Assembly: GCA_902500755.1 (NCBI GenBank)
Contig: CABVRV010000020.1
Span: 1 to 48,353, forward strand
Direction: 5' to 3'
Length of the DNA: 48,353 bases
Source of the DNA: an uncultured Nitrospira sp.
GTDB lineage: Bacteria > Nitrospirota > Nitrospiria > Nitrospirales > Nitrospiraceae
Under the pieces are notes generated by a model that saw nothing but the letters and a program-made list of their open reading frames with translations, had not been told where the DNA came from and did not search any database. Every line of letters starts with the position of its first letter. The stretch's first letter is position 1. The position numbers and the translations under genes were made by a program. This document shows, in pieces, positions 13,408 to 48,353 of the stretch.

Positions 13408-13485
13408 GGTGGGTGTAGCTCAGTTGGTTAGAGCGCCGGATTGTGGATCCGGAGGTCGCGGGTTCGAAACCCGTCATCCACCCCA
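13408..13485 (+). tRNA. tRNA-His (anticodon GTG), CCA encoded
   Basis: Full cloverleaf by eye. The acceptor GTGGGTG (13409-13415) pairs with CATCCAC (13475-13481). The discriminator is C13482, opposite an encoded G-1 (13408) as required for tRNA-His, and CCA is at 13483-13485. The D-arm is AGCTCAGTTGGTTAGAGC. The anticodon stem CCGGA/TCCGG frames loop TTGTGGA with GTG at 13443-13445, and the T-arm is GCGGGTTCGAAACCCGT. A gene-poor stretch follows, which fits a tRNA used as an integration site, although no integrase is visible. Confidence 0.97.
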
Positions 13486-39673: not shown

Positions 39674-41179
39674 ATGTATTGCGTGAGCCGGACTCTCCCG
39701 GTGGCCCTGACGATCGTGGCCGTCGTCGGCGGGAACGGCTGTGCCATCAAGCCGATACCGTTGACGGAAGGCGAGGTCCAGGTGCGGGTGAACGAGGATC
39801 GAGCCGTTCTGACGAAAGATCAAGAGCCGATCAATGGCCCGGTGGATCTCTACGAAGCCATGGCGCGAGCGTTGAAATACAACCTCGACGCCCGCGTCGA
39901 GCTGATGCACAAGATGTTGGCGCAGACGCAGCTTGATCTCTCACACTACGCGATGTTGCCCCGTCTGGCGGCGAACGCGGGATTTGACGGACGGAACAAT
40001 TTCCCCGGCGGTGTTGCACAGTCCCTGCTCACCGGGCGGCAGGTGCTCGAACCCTTTACTTCCGCCGAACGAAACATTTTCTCGGCCGATCTGTCGTTGA
40101 GCTGGAACGTCTTGGATTTCGGGTTGTCCTATATCCGGGCCAAGCAAGCCGCGGACGATGTCTTGATTGCCGAGGAAGAACGGCGGCGAGTGGCCAATCG
40201 AATCATGCAGGATGTGCGTATCGCCTACTGGCGAGCTGTCAGCGCGGAACGAATTCTTCCTTCCCTTCGGCAGCTGGATGAGTGGGTGAATCGTGCACTT
40301 GAGAAGGCGCAGGCGGTCCAAGATGAGCGGCTGAGCACGCCGCTGGTTCCCTTACAATACAAGCTCGATCTCCTCAATACCCAACGGTACATTCAACAGC
40401 TGTTCAGAGAACTGAATACCGCTAAGCTTCAGTTGACCGCGCTGATCAATCTGCCGCCGGGGCAGGAGAAAGATCTCGTCCTTCTCGTCCCTGAGCGAGA
40501 GGCTCAAACCCTGAATCTCCCGTCCGAGATGATGGCGCTGGAAGATCGAGCTTTGCAGGCGCGCCCTGAGCTCCGGATGATCGATTATCGTCGTCGGATC
40601 AACGCACGCGAGGCCAAAGCGGCAATTTTAGAAATGTTGCCCAGCCTGAATCTCCAAGTCGGAGGCAACTACAGCAGCAATACCTTCCTCTTTAACAATC
40701 ACTGGGCCGCCTACGCGGCACGCACAAGTTGGAATTTACTCAACCTCTTGCGGTATCCCGCGCGGGCCAAGACCATCGAGGCGCAAGATAAAGTGCTTCA
40801 CACGCAGAACTTGGCGTTGACCATGGCGGTGATGTCGCAAGTCCATGTGAGCGTGGCGCAGGTGGCGCATGCGAAGAAAGAGGTATCGACCGCGGCCCTG
40901 TATTACGACACGCAATCACAAATCGCCGAACAGACGCGGGTGGCCTGGCGCAGCGCCAAACTGAGCGAACAATCGGTATTGCGTGAGCGAGTGGCTCAAG
41001 TGGCGGCCCAGCTCCGCTATGACGCCGTGGAAGCCGAGGCGCAAACCGCCTGGGCGGCGCTGCTCGCCGCCGTCGGGGAAGATGTGCTCCCTCATCATCT
41101 GACCAGCGAGCAAAGCCTGTCGGATCTGTCTCTCCAACTGCGCGCGCGGTGGACGAAAAGCAAGGAGTTGCTCAAGTGA
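39674..41179 (+). CDS. TolC-like outer-membrane export lipoprotein (first gene of M50/HlyD operon)
   Basis: 501 aa from the ATG at 39674; the longer frame (from 39521) has an implausible basic N-terminus. Signal peptide with lipobox G-G-N-G-C (Cys23), so a lipid-anchored outer-membrane factor. The body shows the two-fold TolC layout of long helices: V-D-L-Y-E-A-M-A-R-A-L-K-Y-N-L near residue 55, L-S-W-N-V-L-D-F-G-L-S-Y near 145, and the second repeat N-L-L-N-L-L-R-Y-P-A-R near 355. It would form the channel-tunnel across the outer membrane. The stop TGA overlaps the next gene's GTG (GTGA), indicating translational coupling. Confidence 0.88.
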   Translation: MYCVSRTLPVALTIVAVVGGNGCAIKPIPLTEGEVQVRVNEDRAVLTKDQEPINGPVDLYEAMARALKYNLDARVELMHKMLAQTQLDLSHYAMLPRLAANAGFDGRNNFPGGVAQSLLTGRQVLEPFTSAERNIFSADLSLSWNVLDFGLSYIRAKQAADDVLIAEEERRRVANRIMQDVRIAYWRAVSAERILPSLRQLDEWVNRALEKAQAVQDERLSTPLVPLQYKLDLLNTQRYIQQLFRELNTAKLQLTALINLPPGQEKDLVLLVPEREAQTLNLPSEMMALEDRALQARPELRMIDYRRRINAREAKAAILEMLPSLNLQVGGNYSSNTFLFNNHWAAYAARTSWNLLNLLRYPARAKTIEAQDKVLHTQNLALTMAVMSQVHVSVAQVAHAKKEVSTAALYYDTQSQIAEQTRVAWRSAKLSEQSVLRERVAQVAAQLRYDAVEAEAQTAWAALLAAVGEDVLPHHLTSEQSLSDLSLQLRARWTKSKELLK

Positions 41180-41964
41180 GTCGTGGCGGTCTGATGGGTG
41201 GTGGGTCTCTCATCGGGATATATCTGGTGTGCACCATGATCGAGCCGGCACGCGCCACGACGCCACTCGATGCGAAACCGGCAAGCAACTCGGCTGAACT
41301 CGCCACCATCCGAGGAGTGGTCAAGGCGACCGCGCAGGCAACCTTGGCCAGCCAGGTCCAAGGCCGAATCAGCCGACTACCCGTGAAAGAAGGACAACGG
41401 TTCAAGAAAGGCGCGCTGTTGGTGGCGCTCGACTGCTCCAAATACGAGGCAGAACTAGCGAGCGCCCAAGCCGAGTATCGCGGCAAAAAGAAAACGTATG
41501 AGAACAATCTCCGTCTGTCCAAACATCAGGCGGTGGGGCAACTCGAACTGGAAGTGTCCGAGGCGGACGCGGAGAAGGCAGTCGCTGCCGTGAAGGCCGC
41601 GCAGGTCAATGTCAGCGGCTGTACGGTGCGGGCACCTTTCCCCGGTCGTGTCGTCAAGACCATCGTCAATGAGCACGAGAACGTATTTCCCAATGATCAA
41701 CTGATCAGCCTCTTGGACGACAGTCAGCTCGAAATCGAGCTGATTCTGCCCTCCAAATCCCTGGCGTGGCTTATGGTCGGACTCCCCTTTGAGTATGCGG
41801 TGGATGAGACGGGACTCCGGTATCCCGCCGTCGTGGAGGATATCGGAGCGAATGTTGATCCTGCCAGCCAGACAGTCAAAGTCAAAGGTCTGTTTCGGGC
41901 CAAGCCCGACAAGGTTCTCGCCGGGATGAGCGGCATTGCGTCGTTTGCTGAAGGCCCACACTGA
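41176..41964 (+). CDS. HlyD-type periplasmic adaptor
   Basis: 262 aa. GTG at 41176 chosen: AAGGAG lies 8 bases upstream and GTGA overlaps the tolC-like stop. N-terminal membrane anchor/signal (L-I-G-I-Y-L-V-C-T-M-I near residue 13), then the lipoyl-like hairpin halves (V-Q-G-R-I-S-R-L-P-V-K-E-G-Q and V-R-A-P-F-P-G-R-V-V-K) flanking a coiled coil, and a beta-barrel with P-A-S-Q-T-V-K-V-K. The domain set is that of RND/type I secretion adaptors. It is the first of three adaptor-type domains in the operon. Confidence 0.88.
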   Translation: MSRGGLMGGGSLIGIYLVCTMIEPARATTPLDAKPASNSAELATIRGVVKATAQATLASQVQGRISRLPVKEGQRFKKGALLVALDCSKYEAELASAQAEYRGKKKTYENNLRLSKHQAVGQLELEVSEADAEKAVAAVKAAQVNVSGCTVRAPFPGRVVKTIVNEHENVFPNDQLISLLDDSQLEIELILPSKSLAWLMVGLPFEYAVDETGLRYPAVVEDIGANVDPASQTVKVKGLFRAKPDKVLAGMSGIASFAEGPH

Positions 41965-41974
41965 CCACGTCGAC

Positions 41975-43342
41975 ATGGTCGCAGCACAAGCCACACCCCA
42001 CAGCTCGCCACCGAAAAATACTCCGTGGGCCACTCTCTTACAATTGGAAAGAATGGTTCGCGCTGCCGCCACTCAGCAAGAGCTGCAATTTCTCATTGTC
42101 AACGAAACGCGTCGGTTGGTGTCGTACAGACAGGCGATTTTGCTGATTCCGTCCTCGGCGGCTGCGTCGAAATATGATGTGCGGGCCGCTTCGAGTGTGC
42201 CCGTCGTCGACCGTACGGTACCGGTGATGCAATGGACCGAGCGGCTGATCCAGAGTCTGCGCGACACTTCGAACAGCCACGACATCCAGCAGGTTAAAGA
42301 GGCCGATTGTCCTCCCGAACTTCAGTCAGAGTGGAATGAATTCAGCACTGGTCATGGCCTGTGGTGTCCGCTGAGACATCCAGACGGACAGATGCTGGGC
42401 GGTCTGTGGCTCACGCGCGATCAACCATGGCCGGAGCACGAAATCACGGTGCTTCAACGACTCAGCGAGGCCTATGCCTACGCCTGGCGCGCGGTCGGTC
42501 CATCCAAGAACCTCCGATGGCGCTGGGGCCTGAGTCGGACGACGACCTGTCTGCTTGCCGGAGCGGTGGTGAGCGCGCTGATCGTTCCTGTCCCCATGTC
42601 GACCGTGGCTCCCGCCAAGATTGTGGCCAAGAATCCGTTGATTGTCAGCGCGCCGATCGACGGGGTCATCGCGGACATTGCCGTGCTGCCGAATACCGAG
42701 GTCACACAAGGAGAGCTGTTATTCCGGTACGAGGATACGACCTTCCGCAGCGACTATCAGATCGCGGAACGCAACCTGGATGTGGCGATGGCGCAGTATC
42801 GCCGGGCGGCTCAGGGGGCGTTTGTGGAGGCCGACCAAAAGGCCGATGTGCCGCTGTTGAAGGCGGAAGTGGAGTTGCGGGAAACGGAGCGGAACTATAC
42901 TTATGAACGATTGGCCAAAGTGGAGGTCAAGGCAGAACAGGCAGGGCTGGTTCTGTACAGCGATAAGTCCGATTGGATCGGAAAACCGGTCGTCGTCGGC
43001 CAGCGCATGATGGAACTGGCGAACCCTCGGCAGGTGGAAGTCAGAATCGATCTCCCGGTCGACGATGCCATCGTGCTGCGCGAGGGGGCAGCGGTGTCGT
43101 TATTTCTCAACGCCCATCCGTTATCCAGCGTGTCGGCCACGCTGAGTCATGCGAGCTACCATGCCGAAGTCCTGCCGAACAACACCTTGGCCTATCGTGT
43201 CACGGCCCAGCTTGGAGAAGGGGCGCCGGAATTGCGGATCGGGTGGCAGGGCAGCGCAAAGATTTACGGAGCGAACGTGTCGCTGTTCACCTATCTGTTC
43301 CGCCGTCCGATGTCCGCGCTCAGGCCGTGGATTGGGCTGTGA
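41975..43342 (+). CDS. GAF domain - transmembrane helix - HlyD adaptor fusion
   Basis: 455 aa from ATG 41975, 11 bp after the previous stop; TTG 41936 would overlap it. Residues ~20-165 form a GAF-like sensor domain (L-E-R-M-V-R-A-A-A-T-Q-Q-E-L, L-W-C-P-L-R-H-P-D-G-Q, G-G-L-W-L-T-R-D). A single transmembrane helix (about 189-207) follows, then a periplasmic HlyD region with V-S-A-P-I-D-G-V-I-A-D-I and a coiled coil. The topology puts GAF in the cytoplasm. GAF fused to an adaptor is unusual; it may sense a small molecule or dock the partner protease. Overlaps the next gene by 4 bp if the GTG at 43339 is used. Confidence 0.85.
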   Translation: MVAAQATPHSSPPKNTPWATLLQLERMVRAAATQQELQFLIVNETRRLVSYRQAILLIPSSAAASKYDVRAASSVPVVDRTVPVMQWTERLIQSLRDTSNSHDIQQVKEADCPPELQSEWNEFSTGHGLWCPLRHPDGQMLGGLWLTRDQPWPEHEITVLQRLSEAYAYAWRAVGPSKNLRWRWGLSRTTTCLLAGAVVSALIVPVPMSTVAPAKIVAKNPLIVSAPIDGVIADIAVLPNTEVTQGELLFRYEDTTFRSDYQIAERNLDVAMAQYRRAAQGAFVEADQKADVPLLKAEVELRETERNYTYERLAKVEVKAEQAGLVLYSDKSDWIGKPVVVGQRMMELANPRQVEVRIDLPVDDAIVLREGAAVSLFLNAHPLSSVSATLSHASYHAEVLPNNTLAYRVTAQLGEGAPELRIGWQGSAKIYGANVSLFTYLFRRPMSALRPWIGL

Positions 43343-43350
43343 AATCACCA

Positions 43351-45471
43351 ATGGATCAGCAGCGTGAATCCATCTTGCCGCCGTTGCGGGAGGATCTCCA
43401 GCTGCTGCCCGGAGCCCCAGCTCCTGATGGGTCGCCGATCTGGGTTCTGGTAGACCAGCTTCGTGGCAAGTATTTCCAGATCAGCTGGCCGGCCTACCAG
43501 ATGCTCTCGCGCTGGAAGGGCCGGTCAGCGGAAGCCATCCTGTCGGCGATTCATGCTGAGACGACCTGTCGCGTCACGGCTCAGGATATCGACGAGTTTC
43601 TGCGGTTCTTGTCCAAGAACTATCTCATGCGCGATCCGCCGCAGGGAGGGTATCGAACCTATCTCGCCCAAGCAGAAGCGGCCAAGCCACAGTGGCTGAC
43701 GTGGTTGGCCCACCACTATCTGTTCTTCCAAGTGCCGTTGGTCCGGCCGGATCGATTTCTTCATGCGACGCTTCCGTTTGTTGAATGGCTCTTTGCCCCA
43801 GCCGTGGCATGGATCATTGGACTGGTCGGGCTGATCGGGATCTATCTCGTCTCCCGTCAGTGGGACACATTTTCCGCCACCATGTTGCATTTCTTCACGC
43901 CGCGTGGGTTTGCGTTGTACGTGCTCTGTCTGGTCATCGTCAAGATCTTTCATGAACTCGGGCATGCCTATACCGCGACACGCTACGGCTGCCGCGTGTC
44001 GACCATGGGTGTCGCCGCGATCTTACTCGTCCCGATGCTGTACTCCGACACCTCCGATGCCTGGAAATTGACCTCCCGACGTCAGCGTGCCGCCATTGGG
44101 GCTGCCGGGATGATTGTGGAATGTGCAGTGGCGGCACTCGCGATCTTCGCGTGGAGCTTTCTGGACGACGGGGTGGGAAGAAGCCTGGCATTTCTCATGG
44201 CGACGACCAGCTTGGCGTTGGGAGCGGCGATTAACCTGAACCCGTTCATGCGGTTCGATGGCTATTACGTACTCTCCGACTTACTCGGCATCCCAAATCT
44301 GCATGAGCGGGCCTTTGCGTTCGGCCAGTGGCAGATCCGACGAATCCTGTTTGGGCTGGATACGCCGATGCCAGAGCCGGTGTCTGCGGCGCGGCGACGC
44401 TTCTTGGTTGGGTTCGCCTGGGCCACGTGGGCGTACCGGTTCTTGCTGTTTCTGGGGATCGCCTTGGTGGTCTATCACTTCTTCTTCAAGTTGCTGGGAC
44501 TCATCCTGTTCGCCTTCGAAATCGGCTGGTTCATCGTGCTGCCGATTATGCGTGAACTCAAGGCCTGGTGGATGTTACGCGCGGCGGTTCGCGAACAGCG
44601 ACGAATATGGATCACCGCCGGCGCAGTGGGTGTCCTCACGGCTGTGCTGTTCGTCCCGTGGTCGGATCGAATCACCCTCCCGGCTGTGTTGGAATCGATG
44701 CCCCATGCCACGATCTATGCACCGGCTCCGGGCAGAATCGTCGAGCTGACCTTAGCGGAAGGCCGTCACGTGGACAAAGGCACCGGACTCATTACCCTGG
44801 AATCCCCGGTACTGGAAAAAGAGGTGGCGTTAACGCAGAAGCGGATCGAGGTTGAACAGTTGAGAGGACGGCGCCAGTTCGTGGATCAACAAGAACTGTC
44901 AAAACATCAGGTCACGATCGAAGCGCTGAAGGCACGGCTCTCGCAGCTTGAGGGTCTTGTGCAACAACAGCAGACGCTCTCGCTCGTATCGCCGATCTCA
45001 GGACGAGTCACCGACCGTGCAGAGGCGTTGCATGTGGGACGCTGGATTAATAAGGAACTACCGCTTGCCTATGTCGTGGACCCAGCAGGCGAAGAGGTGC
45101 ATGCGGTCGCGCCAGAAACTGACGTCGGCTATCTCCAATCAGGCCAGTCGGCTCGATTCATTCCCGACGGCGCCGAGCGGCCGAGCGTGAGAGCGCAGGT
45201 GATAGAGATTCGGGATATCGATGAGTACAGCTTCACGGTTCCCTATCTGGCCTCCCTCTACGGCGGCGAGGTGCCGGTGCGGGAAGATGCCAATCATCGG
45301 CTGCGGCCTGAGACCTCCGTCTATCGGATCACCCTCCGTCTCGCCGAGCCGGCTCCCCGATGGAACCAAGCCGTGCGGGGCACCGTGTTGGTGGATGGCC
45401 CTCGCATCAGTTTTGCTCAACGGGCCTGGGAGAAGGGCGTTCGGGTCCTGATCCGCGAAAGCGGGGCCTGA
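43351..45471 (+). CDS. Multi-pass M50 metalloprotease with PqqD-like N-terminus and HlyD-like C-terminus
   Basis: 706 aa. N-terminal ~15-95 (W-V-L-V-D-Q-L-R-G-K-Y-F-Q-I-S, then D-I-D-E-F-L-R-F-L) looks like a PqqD/RRE-type domain. The membrane part contains the zinc motif H-E-L-G-H (residues 201-205) and N-L-N-P-F-M-R-F-D-G-Y-Y with D303, the site-2-protease third ligand, within about six to eight helices. The C-terminal ~480-700 is an HlyD-type adaptor (V-L-E-S-M-P-H-A-T, P-A-P-G-R-I-V-E-L, coiled coil, S-P-I-S-G-R-V-T). ATG used; GTG 43339 would overlap the previous stop. No ABC ATPase is encoded nearby. Confidence 0.88.
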   Translation: MDQQRESILPPLREDLQLLPGAPAPDGSPIWVLVDQLRGKYFQISWPAYQMLSRWKGRSAEAILSAIHAETTCRVTAQDIDEFLRFLSKNYLMRDPPQGGYRTYLAQAEAAKPQWLTWLAHHYLFFQVPLVRPDRFLHATLPFVEWLFAPAVAWIIGLVGLIGIYLVSRQWDTFSATMLHFFTPRGFALYVLCLVIVKIFHELGHAYTATRYGCRVSTMGVAAILLVPMLYSDTSDAWKLTSRRQRAAIGAAGMIVECAVAALAIFAWSFLDDGVGRSLAFLMATTSLALGAAINLNPFMRFDGYYVLSDLLGIPNLHERAFAFGQWQIRRILFGLDTPMPEPVSAARRRFLVGFAWATWAYRFLLFLGIALVVYHFFFKLLGLILFAFEIGWFIVLPIMRELKAWWMLRAAVREQRRIWITAGAVGVLTAVLFVPWSDRITLPAVLESMPHATIYAPAPGRIVELTLAEGRHVDKGTGLITLESPVLEKEVALTQKRIEVEQLRGRRQFVDQQELSKHQVTIEALKARLSQLEGLVQQQQTLSLVSPISGRVTDRAEALHVGRWINKELPLAYVVDPAGEEVHAVAPETDVGYLQSGQSARFIPDGAERPSVRAQVIEIRDIDEYSFTVPYLASLYGGEVPVREDANHRLRPETSVYRITLRLAEPAPRWNQAVRGTVLVDGPRISFAQRAWEKGVRVLIRESGA

Positions 45472-45511
45472 TGAGGGTGTTGAGGCGCGTCAAGCGGGGT
45501 TACGGGTTTCA

Positions 45512-45568
45512 AGTTTCAGGTTCTTGGCTTCTGCACAACGCGACACGTTGAACGTGAAACCTGAAACT
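45512..45568. repeat. REP-like inverted repeat after the M50 gene
   Basis: AGTTTCAGGTT (45512-45522) pairs with AACCTGAAACT (45558-45568); inside lies CACGTTGAACGTG. It is 40 bp after the M50 stop and probably acts as a transcript end or belongs to a dispersed repeat family. Confidence 0.6.
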
Positions 45569-45667
45569 CAGGATCGAAGGAGCGAGATACGGCGGTGTGC
45601 TTGGCGACGTTCTTCAATACGACCGCCGAATTCTGGATGAATCTCCAGATCAGTTGGAAGCGGTCGA

Positions 45668-45862
45668 TTAAGCAATCGCGTATTCGACGGATTTCGGATT
45701 CTGCACCCGCTTTGAGGCGTTGAGGATTTCAATGCCGACGATGTTCCCCTCCTTGTCATAGTCCAGAATGACACCGGGCTTGTCCTCGTCACTCTCCTCC
45801 ACAGGAGCATCACTGAATTCGATCGTCAACACATCCACTTCTTCGTCATATTTCACCTTCAT
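45668..45862 (-). CDS. DUF2283-family protein (antitoxin-like)
   Basis: 64 aa from the ATG at 45862, with GGAGG five bases upstream; ATGA overlaps the stop of the preceding DUF4258 gene. Pattern M-K-V-K-Y-D-E-E-V-D-V-L-T-I-E-F-S, then G-V-I-L-D-Y-D-K-E-G-N-I-V-G-I-E-I-L-N-A-S is typical of DUF2283, which is repeatedly found beside DUF4258 or RelE-like proteins. Likely role: partner or antitoxin of the upstream protein. Confidence 0.85.
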   Translation of the reverse strand: MKVKYDEEVDVLTIEFSDAPVEESDEDKPGVILDYDKEGNIVGIEILNASKRVQNPKSVEYAIA

Positions 45863-46116
45863 GGCTTCCTCCAATACTTACTGACCTTGCTGGTGCGATA
45901 CACGGTGACCACGATGGCTGGATCCATCGTTTCGTTGACCATCACGCGCAACAAGTATGCCTTCCCGTTGATCTCCACTCGCGACTGGTAGCACGTAATG
46001 CCGTTGACTTCCTGGACCTTTTGCTCTGGATTATAGAGAGCTTGTTCCACAAGCCTCTGCGGGATTTTACGCTTTTCCAGTTCTTGGAGCACGTGCTTAG
46101 AGAATTGAAACTTCAT
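45859..46116 (-). CDS. DUF4258-family protein (toxin-like)
   Basis: 85 aa. Begins M-K-F-Q-F-S-K-H-V-L-Q-E-L-E-K-R-K-I and contains the beta-strand block L-L-R-V-M-V-N-E-T and V-V-T-V-Y-R-T-S-K-V-S-K-Y-W, as in the RelE-like DUF4258 family. Its TGA overlaps the ATG of the DUF2283 gene, a classic tightly coupled pair. The pair sits between the M50 gene and the large surface protein, on the opposite strand. Toxicity is an inference from the family context. Confidence 0.8.
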   Translation of the reverse strand: MKFQFSKHVLQELEKRKIPQRLVEQALYNPEQKVQEVNGITCYQSRVEINGKAYLLRVMVNETMDPAIVVTVYRTSKVSKYWRKP

Positions 46117-46543
46117 CGCGTTGGACTCTTCTCGGTCAGTTCCAACTCAAGCCTCTGCTGGCCAGGCCGAGGCGGGGCCTTCGTCTGCCACACGCTGCAC
46201 TCCTCTTAGGTGTCCGGAGCTTACCCGTTTCCTCTTGAGAAAGCACGTCTTGGCTTGGGAATTGTTGGGCCTGCCCTGCCTGTCCTGTGCCAGATGAGGA
46301 CTCACCACGAACAGACTTCTGGGGCAGCACACGAGGACCAGAGCGCGGGGTAGGACCGAGAGCCCTCCCTCCGAAGCATTTGGCTAGCAACGGGCGTCCT
46401 TCGTCACATTCAGTATTCACGATAAATCGTCCTGCAGAGCACCATCTAACTCCCCTGTCAGAAAGGGGAATTTGCTTCGGGAAGTGGCACCGGCTTGCTA
46501 AATTATTCCTGGTAAATCGGAGAACTCCGTTCTTCTCGCTACC
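46117..46543. other. Upstream region of the large surface protein
   Basis: 427 bases without a supported gene. The 19-mer shared with 16485-16503 is at 46432-46450, directly followed by a hairpin TCCCCT/AGGGGA at 46451-46469. There is no good Shine-Dalgarno before the next ATG. The central part (46160-46430) is G/C-rich with short antisense frames that look like chance. Confidence 0.45.
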
Positions 46544-48353
46544 ATGAGAATCCTACGTCGACGCAAGAAGACTGCAGCAAAATCAGCTTGCGGTCATCAG
46601 CGGACTTCCGTGCAGGTGGCCGCGCCTTTTTCCTCTTACAGTGCCTCCTGGTTCGCGCTCGAATCGCGGATCATGTTCGATGGGGCGGGTGTCGCGACGC
46701 TCAGCACCGTTGCCATCGAGCCACTCGCCCAGAGTCAAGCTGAAGCGCTCTCGTCGCCTGAGGACGTGACCGCTAGCGATGCCCTGCCTGGTCCGGCACC
46801 GACGGGTGAGCCGCAGTTCAACGCCAGCGACCAGGCGTTGTTTGATGCTCTGGCGGCGTACGATATGTCAGCAGCTCGTCAGGAAATCGTCTTTCTTTCT
46901 TCCAGCGTTCGCGACTACCAACAACTGCTCGATGGCATCAGCCACAACGTCGAAGTGATCATCCTCGATCCTGCCCGCGACGGCGTCACACAGATGGCGG
47001 AGGTGCTAGCCGGTCGGACGGGCATCGACGCGATCCACCTGATCGGCGAAGGGACCGAAGCCGAGTTGCATCTCGGTGTCAGCTTCCTGACACAAGAGTC
47101 GATCAGCACGACTTACGCACAACACTTCCAGCAAATTGGTCAAAGTCTCTCGGCAGATGCCGACGTCCTGATCTACGGCTGTAACTTCGGCCGCGGCGAG
47201 ACAGGACAATTGGCCATGAACACGCTCGCCACGCTGACCGGCGCCGATGTGGCAGCAAGTAGCGACCGGACCGGCCATGTAACAGAGTTTGGCGACTGGC
47301 AGCTTGAAGCCTCGATCGGTGCGATCGAAGCGTCAATCGCGATCGGGCAGGACGCGCAGGCCCAATGGGAACATGCACTGGCAACTTATACAGTGACAAA
47401 TACGAACAACTCAGGCGCCGGATCGTTGCGACAGGCAATTTTAGATGCCAATGCCAATGCCGGTGCAGACACCATTGTGTTCAGCATCGGCAGCGGGGGC
47501 CAGCGCATCCGGCCCACTTCAGCCTTGCCGACAATCACTGACACCGTGACCATCGACGGCTGGACCCAGCCCGGATTCACCGGCACGCCGCTCATCGAGC
47601 TGCGGGGCGACAATGCTGGAGCAGGCGTCGATGGGCTTACGTTCTCGAGCACCAGTGACGGCAGCGTGGCGCGCGGCCTTGTGATCTACGACTACACGCG
47701 CGACGGCATTTTGATCCAGGCTGGTGCCGACAACATTACAATCCGTGGGAACTGGATCGGCACCACCGGTACCGGTACAACCGGCGACGGCAACGGCGAT
47801 GATGGGATCGAAATTGCCGGTTCCGGTGCCATCATTGGTGGCACCGGAACAAACGATCGGAACGTCATCACTAATAACGCCGATGAGGGCATCACGATCG
47901 TCGGTTCAGGCGTGACCGGGCATTTGATCCAAAGCAACTATATTGGCGTGGATCCAGACGGCTCGACCGGAGGCGGGAATGCTGATGTGGGCATCGCCAT
48001 TATCTCAGGAACCGGCAACACGATCGGTGGCACCACTGCCGCCTCCCGCAACGTGATTTCAAGAAACGTCGAAGGCATTGAAATCAATACCTCCAACAAC
48101 ATCGCGCAAGGCAACTATATCGGTGTTGCTGCGGACGGCACGACAGCCAAAGGCAACCAATCCGGCAATGGCGTCCAGATCCAGGGTAGCTCCACGGGAA
48201 ACCTTATCGGCGGCACTGCAGTCGGGGCCGGTAATGTGATTGCTTACAATGCCAACAACGGCGTGGATGTGGTGAATGGTACCGGCCACGCCGTGCTTGG
48301 CAACCAAATCCACTCGAACACGGCACTTGGGATCAACCTAGACGCGGCCGGTG
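46544..48353 (+). CDS. Large DUF4347 / parallel beta-helix surface protein with LESRIMFDGA leader motif (5' part, runs off window)
   Basis: At least 603 codons open to the window end, ATG at 46544. The basic N-terminus (M-R-I-L-R-R-R-K-K) has no hydrophobic Sec core. Residues 39-48 read L-E-S-R-I-M-F-D-G-A, a variant of the LEPR-type motif found near the N-terminus of giant DUF4347 proteins. DUF4347 covers about 114-274 (E-I-V-F-L-S-S-S-V-R-D-Y, V-I-I-L-D-P-A-R-D-G, Y-G-C-N-F-G-R-G-E-T-G). From ~285 on come G-S-L-R-Q-A-I-L-D-A-N and repeated N-x-I-G-G-T/N-Y-I-G-V units of a right-handed beta-helix. Probably an adhesin or exopolymer-active protein exported by the upstream M50/HlyD/TolC system. 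A poor ribosome-binding site is notable. Confidence 0.88.
   Translation, partial: MRILRRRKKTAAKSACGHQRTSVQVAAPFSSYSASWFALESRIMFDGAGVATLSTVAIEPLAQSQAEALSSPEDVTASDALPGPAPTGEPQFNASDQALFDALAAYDMSAARQEIVFLSSSVRDYQQLLDGISHNVEVIILDPARDGVTQMAEVLAGRTGIDAIHLIGEGTEAELHLGVSFLTQESISTTYAQHFQQIGQSLSADADVLIYGCNFGRGETGQLAMNTLATLTGADVAASSDRTGHVTEFGDWQLEASIGAIEASIAIGQDAQAQWEHALATYTVTNTNNSGAGSLRQAILDANANAGADTIVFSIGSGGQRIRPTSALPTITDTVTIDGWTQPGFTGTPLIELRGDNAGAGVDGLTFSSTSDGSVARGLVIYDYTRDGILIQAGADNITIRGNWIGTTGTGTTGDGNGDDGIEIAGSGAIIGGTGTNDRNVITNNADEGITIVGSGVTGHLIQSNYIGVDPDGSTGGGNADVGIAIISGTGNTIGGTTAASRNVISRNVEGIEINTSNNIAQGNYIGVAADGTTAKGNQSGNGVQIQGSSTGNLIGGTAVGAGNVIAYNANNGVDVVNGTGHAVLGNQIHSNTALGINLDAAG

Follow-up and report, generated by a model that had tools for sequence, protein, structure and literature searches.

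How a giant protein might be carried to the cell surface where three periplasmic adaptors and a TolC-type channel are encoded beside it and an ATP-binding cassette (ABC) ATPase is not, is the question raised by a locus at positions 39,674 to 48,353 of a contig from an uncultured Nitrospira sp. (NCBI GenBank assembly GCA_902500755.1, contig CABVRV010000020.1). The entire contig of 48,353 nt, here called the window, is C20 of genome G000, a draft of 203 contigs that is 94% complete. The best explanation at present is that the five genes of this locus probably encode a dedicated, leader-dependent exporter that works without an ABC transporter, together with the giant surface protein that it exports, with SecA as candidate motor. 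The safest claim that can be made from the sequences is that of a conserved module with a cognate N-terminal tag on its cargo.

Four forward-strand genes precede the giant one. They specify a TolC-family outer membrane channel (39674..41179; Pfam OEP 1.5e-32; ATG at 39674) whose start is lipobox-like as judged by eye, a short periplasmic adaptor of the RND membrane fusion protein (MFP)/HlyD type (41194..41964; HlyD_3 1.1e-17; 122.3 bits with TIGR01730, above its cut-off), an adaptor combining a GAF domain, a transmembrane (TM) segment and HlyD (41975..43342; HlyD_3 4e-12; GAF 0.0012, under the GAF cut-off), and a fusion of a PqqD-like segment, an M50 (site-2 protease) domain and an HlyD adaptor (43351..45471; Peptidase_M50 1.7e-8; HlyD_3 4.7e-13), referred to below as M50-HlyD. 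The giant gene follows on the same strand as an open reading frame (ORF) of 603 aa that runs off the contig (46544..48353; DUF4347 1.2e-50); because the contig ends there, the C-terminus of the giant is not readable. This gene order, read from the letters in the initial annotation, is borne out by the ORF calls and Pfam matches. The description of the first four genes as packed is correct, these being spaced by 8-14 bp given the likely ATG starts at 39674, 41194, 41975 and 43351; the M50 gene is separated from the giant by a 1071-bp gap holding two small reverse-strand genes, DUF2283 and DUF4258 (45668-46116), which we take to be a toxin-antitoxin-like pair. In five close relatives the open frame of the giant starts about 50-400 bp past the M50 frame. 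The absence of an ABC ATPase near the cluster, likewise claimed at the outset, stands: PF00005 has no match on the window contig and 50 matches genome-wide. An HlyB-type transporter is present in the genome, on a different contig.

The conservation of this arrangement was assessed in a set of 86 loci, being the best-scoring 80 loci of a scan with one genome per species, the window and five plasmid loci, with module-gene profiles built from six seeds and later widened. The GAF-HlyD gene adjoins the M50-HlyD gene in all 66 loci with at least 6 kb of upstream sequence, and the same 66 loci have the short adaptor in 59 cases and an adjacent TolC gene in 51. The order TolC, short MFP, GAF-HlyD, M50-HlyD with an adjoining large repeat-protein gene recurs in Azospirillum, Variovorax, Burkholderia, an Escherichia coli plasmid and many other loci, and the module is found in Nitrospira; going by the titles of the records, it also occurs in Alpha-, Beta-, Gamma- and Zetaproteobacteria and desulfo-type bacteria. 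A giant or other long ORF lies directly up- or downstream in most loci and is missing in 25 of the 86, many of which are short. No ABC-profile match falls between module genes in any of the 86 loci, the profile having recovered 6 of 6 known exporters as a positive control; matches occur somewhere in 16 loci, and within 3 kb in 5 of the 48 loci having 5 kb on both sides. Nearby ABC genes were set aside as servants of the module: the nearest match, at 122 bp in L089, belongs by Pfam to an AAA_15-type ATPase, and that of L100, 1.3 kb downstream, shows ABC_tran in Pfam without the membrane domain of an exporter. The neighbourhood survey of M50 and HlyD fusions suggested with the initial annotation returned a conserved module with giant cargo, and the finding named there as contrary to its proposal, an ABC ATPase routinely encoded in the same cluster of related genomes, was not made.

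Several individual loci deserve mention beside this general pattern. The E. coli plasmid locus (L067, NZ_CP081687.1) holds the module plus an Ig-like giant, and the E. coli M50 gene occurs in 24 of 5426 complete genomes, 21 of its 25 places being plasmid-borne. The module of Variovorax (L065, 10736-25909), whose giant gene is 48.7 kb long, adjoins a gsp cluster for type II secretion. The alphaproteobacterial genome G311 (L256, 8072-13571) has M50 and TolC genes split into several ORFs by stops and a tag-bearing cargo ORF that is kept; this is apparently a decaying copy of the module. Distant M50-HlyD homologues with frames of 836 and 770 aa occur within the same taxonomic order at L289 (G051) and L290 (G044), where the profiles used gave no SecA, TolC or adaptor matches nearby. 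A defence system was set aside, PADLOC having given no match for three proteins.

The second component of the proposed system is the tag, which in the window giant is the motif LESRIMFDGA (46658..46687, forward strand), its L, E, R and D being the same in all 24 cargos aligned. It typically takes the form [AS]LE[PSQ]R[ILMF]xFD[AG]A and lies 15-143 residues past the open-frame start. When 7,097 ORFs were searched with the pattern LExRxx[FLMY]D, 44 matches were retrieved, of which 41 are in cargo-type ORFs and 3 are not. The giants of the E. coli plasmid and of Variovorax, whose annotations read Ig-like and tandem-95 protein, bear the tag as well. From the first Met to just past the motif, the highest 15-residue hydropathy is 0.52-1.70 in 41 cargos.

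Considering that the initial annotation had expected giant DUF4347 proteins to co-occur with M50/HlyD fusions, the partner of the module could be either the DUF4347 domain or the tag. Among 59 genomes from the genus and order to which the window belongs, DUF4347 is present in 23, all of which carry this M50 subfamily (a count that includes contig-end fragments in G001 and G023); two genomes have M50 only and 34 have neither (Fisher p 2e-14), and by listed places the two genes are at most 2 kb apart in 19 of the 23. The two candidates come apart in 241 alphaproteobacterial genomes drawn evenly from the class. DUF4347 occurs in 25 of these, with 12 tagged, 7 tag-less in the loci examined and 6 weak matches left unclassed (G176, G200, G212, G226, G260 and G284), none of the last having an M50 gene at E 1e-30. 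The M50 gene is present in 12 of 12 motif-bearing genomes (G311, with its split gene, being counted among them) vs 0 of 7 motif-less ones (Fisher p 2e-5), where the motif-less class rests on the loci examined, G167 and G112 having further DUF4347 places, and where the Fisher values ignore relatedness among 241 genomes that are not independent. When G319 is left out, its DUF4347 domain being partial and its 3.3-kb locus having no motif in any frame, the motif-less count becomes 0 of 6 (p 5e-5). Phaeobacter and cyanobacterial plasmid loci likewise have tag-less DUF4347 genes with no module gene annotated within the stretch viewed, and a Qingshengfaniella DUF4347 protein has the tag at residue 2 with no module in the stretch viewed, the chromosome having been left out. 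The expected co-occurrence thus fails for DUF4347 alone and is upheld for motif-bearing cargo. DUF4347 was rejected as a marker of the route because of the tag-less copies without a module in view in Phaeobacter, the cyanobacterial plasmids and the seven alphaproteobacterial genomes; since motif-less DUF4347 proteins occur without the module, the partner of the latter is the N-terminal LExRxxFD motif. Of four M50-positive alphaproteobacteria that lack DUF4347, one carries the tag on two ORFs of a different kind beside the module. The association supports well the prediction that the tag is an export signal read by the M50-HlyD protein.

A further contrast between the two sorts of DUF4347 protein is found in their repeats-in-toxin (RTX) content. 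Not one of 21 C-complete motif cargos of relatives has at least two GGxGxD repeats, whereas among seven complete tag-less ORFs with DUF4347 five have 8-23 and the remaining two are 212 and 234 aa long. Among ORFs that are C-truncated and motif-less, L245, L246, L248 and L251 have 0, 10, 0 and 1 repeats, respectively; the Phaeobacter protein has 13, a tag-less Halotia protein 1 and the tag-bearing Qingshengfaniella protein 2. We read this as DUF4347 proteins using two alternative export routes, a putative tag-dependent one without RTX repeats and classic type I secretion with them.

The C-termini of the cargos were also compared. The tail motif [LF]xxQ[LIVF], a pattern made after the tails had been viewed and hence post hoc, is found at the end of many giants from outside Nitrospira and occurs in 31 of 39 giants overall vs 4.7% of internal windows; for about half of the 39 the N-terminus is not in view. 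Three of 42 tails, from a duplicate E. coli giant, another frame of L096 and an ORF out of place in L120, were removed to leave the 39. In held-out tails the motif is present in 8 of 11 complete alphaproteobacterial sequences, which include the near-identical pairs L260/L261 and L258/L267, and in 1 of 9 complete Nitrospira sequences. Five of these nine Nitrospira tails and the alphaproteobacterial L262 have PAWxxxDPxxx after a hydrophobic stretch; this combination, followed by a charged tail, ends the giants of L262, L270-L272, L276 and L278 and is possibly a membrane anchor.

The M50-HlyD protein is the proposed reader of the tag. Its membrane domain has the features of an M50 site-2 protease, namely HExxH and a downstream P-x(4)-DG: the zinc-site motif HELGH (43951..43965) keeps H, E and H in every one of 49 aligned homologues, and the second catalytic motif NPFMRFDG (44239..44262) keeps P, R, D and G in the same 49, its first N being replaced by Ser in several. 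In the predicted structure several long helices surround the site-2-protease core, and structure matches of the model are mostly to adaptor domains. The initial label of this protein is confirmed by Pfam for its M50 and HlyD parts and is weakly supported for the PqqD-like segment (43441..43620), the proposed leader-binding domain, which scores 17 bits with PF05402 (E 0.0078) vs a cut-off of 23.4; this profile matches 6 of 35 homologues, and the segment is modelled as three strands followed by three helices.

From these elements the following sequence of events is proposed. The cargo, which has no evident Sec signal peptide, would be synthesised in the cytoplasm, and its LExRxxFD[AG]A tag would be recognised by the cytoplasmic PqqD-like domain of M50-HlyD. 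The site-2-protease core may then gate passage through the inner membrane, trim the tag there, or do both; cleavage is plausible considering the invariant catalytic residues and the peptide-maturation relatives of this protease in NCBIfam. The three adaptors (short MFP, GAF-HlyD and M50-HlyD) and TolC would form the conduit, and energy would come from a motor encoded outside the locus, most likely the housekeeping SecA. We infer that the genes act as one exporter and their products as a single complex, and likewise infer the direction of transport.

The candidacy of SecA derives from a sister module in which the M50 gene has a SecA-like gene as its neighbour and GAF-HlyD upstream, an arrangement found in nine of nine Nitrospira loci and one locus of N. 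defluvii (L281 3429-15068; also L280, L282-L288 and L298); an adaptor follows in eight of the nine Nitrospira loci and TolC is seen in five. In a tree of 61, the M50 proteins linked to SecA, ten in all, group as a single clade with support 1.0, and those of Nitrospira are 27-31% identical to the window's M50 protein. In the four loci with a visible tagged start (L281, L283, L284 and L298) the sister cargo carries a related tag, LExR[VI]LLAxDL; other sister-locus giants are cut at the contig end, and a 2210-aa ORF upstream of a G005 sister module has no tag in its frame. Both module kinds occur together in N. defluvii and in Nitrospira G005, G011 and G025, as well as in G059. Genomes with the window-kind module only, the window's own included, have one SecA copy, and those with the sister module have two or three, so that the count tracks the number of sister modules found, other extra matches being weak (<33 bits). 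Since the sister module with its related-tag cargo carries its own SecA-like ATPase, the housekeeping SecA is, by analogy, most likely the motor of the window-kind exporter, or at least the leading candidate.

Several observations weigh against this interpretation. The use of SecA by the window-kind module is argued by analogy alone, because the module itself encodes no ATPase (no SecA-like ORF occurs in the 86 window-kind, or group-1, loci) and genomes in which it is the sole kind of module have one full SecA. The PqqD-like segment falls under the Pfam cut-off, and a Protein Data Bank (PDB) sequence search with its alignment gave no PqqD structure. Some loci are without TolC or the short MFP, and only 39 of the 86 loci show a tagged cargo, many of the others being cut off where the locus or contig stops. 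No tag is carried by the long ORFs, with starts in view, near the modules of L106 and L128, or by the ELWxxDGT ORF, its start likewise visible, that neighbours the module of Magnetospirillum (L068). Genome G199, M50-positive without DUF4347, has no tagged ORF in 15.7 kb, and two others of that group are on contigs of ~5 kb. Finally, the tagged and C-truncated L079 has five GGxGxD repeats.

An unlikely alternative is that an ordinary type I ABC transporter with its gene at another site exports the giant, and that the adaptors, TolC and M50 protein of the locus do no more than replace or supplement its conduit and trim the cargo. At least one PrtD-, LssB- or HlyB-type ABC above the curated cut-off is present in 27 of 31 module genomes, the window's own included, and the C-terminal tail motif of most non-Nitrospira giants would also fit C-terminus-first export, as type I signals might predict. 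This alternative is countered by the lack of any ABC match between module genes, by the RTX-free C-complete motif cargos, set against motif-less DUF4347 proteins that are mostly RTX-bearing and without the module, and by four module genomes with no type I ABC above cut-off: G060, G062, G073 and G082, the HlyB model having been run on the eight genomes without a PrtD or LssB match. Full-length sub-cut-off matches exist in G062 and G082, while those of G060 do not cover the N-terminal part of either the HlyB or the LssB model. The last genome, that of Nitrospira UBC2, is a metagenome-assembled genome recorded as one chromosome, and it has both module and cargo without a PrtD-, LssB- or HlyB-type ABC above cut-off.

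It is more doubtful still that M50-HlyD itself serves as the translocation channel and needs no nucleotide motor, the proton-motive force or extracellular folding of the cargo supplying the drive. The long helices around the protease core in the predicted model could accommodate such a role, the module has no ABC or SecA-like gene, and an M50 pore was already proposed for a SecA-linked locus (PMC4452313, in the part available to us), but a SecA-like ATPase of its own is encoded in the sister module. Site-2 proteases, moreover, are not known to conduct proteins. Very improbable is a sensing or regulated-proteolysis system in which GAF-HlyD and M50 sense and cleave, the adaptors having lost transport; the weak GAF domain fused to an adaptor and the established part of site-2 proteases in regulated intramembrane proteolysis (described in the available portion of PMC10202637) are in keeping with it, and the three adaptors and TolC gene adjoining a giant surface-type protein argue the opposite. 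The leader-dependent exporter is retained as the preferred explanation.

The DUF4347 domain of the cargo (46886..47380, forward strand) has the features of a caspase/legumain/CHAT-type fold, which supports its placement among caspase/CHAT-type, clan-CD-like folds. The His-Cys dyad is incomplete in the window copy, where His is replaced by Glu (GEG) and Cys is kept; both residues are present in 50 of 58 aligned copies, and eight Nitrospirota copies including that of the window have lost the His, with Glu or Asp in its place. The relative L069 has a degenerate DUF4347 copy followed by an intact one. The DUF4347 alignment also matched designed TIM barrels in sequence, which we attribute to chance or composition. 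The domain was called uncharacterised in 2021 (PMC8262886, available part) and is present in Tce1 (PA0256; 9QPE), a type VI secretion system effector (available parts of PMC13323088 and PMC8262886); Tce1 is a small cargo of that system and, unlike it, the window copy is without the catalytic His. Elsewhere in the window, the sole tRNA gene is a tRNA-His at 13409-13485.

Taking both modules together, it is conceivable, at somewhat short of even chances, that they represent a distinct class of Gram-negative export in which a leader-binding fusion of site-2 protease and adaptor takes the place that the ABC transporter has in a TolC conduit. In this joint proposal the tag dialects LExRxxFD[AG]A and LExR[VI]LLAxDL would match two machine clades, powered by the cell's SecA (or by no motor) and by their own SecA-like ATPase, respectively, and DUF4347 proteins would leave either by the tag route without RTX repeats or by classic type I secretion with RTX repeats and no tag. 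If true, a TolC-dependent route without an ABC pump would be defined, and a sorting tag would allow many giant cadherin-, Ig- or ELWxxDGT-repeat proteins to be allotted to an export route from sequence alone.

Certain parts of this proposal have precedents. A SecA_DEAD/M50/HlyD/GAF locus was published by Kamneva et al. in 2015 with SecA proposed as ATPase and M50 as pore, and the part of that paper available to us names no cargo for it (PMC4452313); the terms 'lepr' and 'duf4347' are absent from its main text. The SecA-linked sister module is thus already known in print and points to a possible energy source. According to the same partial source, that locus resembles the window module in having GAF-HlyD, M50-HlyD and an HlyD adaptor, sometimes TolC, and no ABC, and differs in its secondary SecA_DEAD protein, absent from the window-kind loci. 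With a likely cargo and signal now named, the 2015 proposal would become testable. The tag itself resembles the LEPR-XLL domain, which was reported as N-terminal in a Vibrio protein of ~8000 aa (PMC10868602, available part), with FD[AG]A standing in place of the LL part. The 24-position profile of that domain (NF012209, LEPR-8K; cut-off 17 bits) gives 14.2-16.3 bits for four of six group-1 cargos, no match for the window giant or that of L072, and 16.4 bits for a sister-module cargo, all below the cut-off.

With respect to proteases, the window M50 protein scores 166.6 bits over residues 36-402 of its frame with the daptide protease model NF041824, far under the equivalog cut-off of 300. The daptide and YydH/LiaK proteases (NF041824 and NF058609, with equivalog cut-offs of 300 and 225 bits) are likewise M50 members, named for peptide maturation; unlike them, the window protein is fused to an HlyD adaptor and adjoins a giant protein. 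A further close comparison is with type I secretion (HlyB-HlyD-TolC) of giant RTX adhesins, in which RTX repeats are common and not universal. It has in common with the window module the HlyD-type adaptors, the TolC channel and giant repeat proteins without an evident Sec signal; in contrast, the window module encodes no ABC ATPase with its adaptors, its C-complete cargos are without RTX repeats and their conserved tag is N-terminal.

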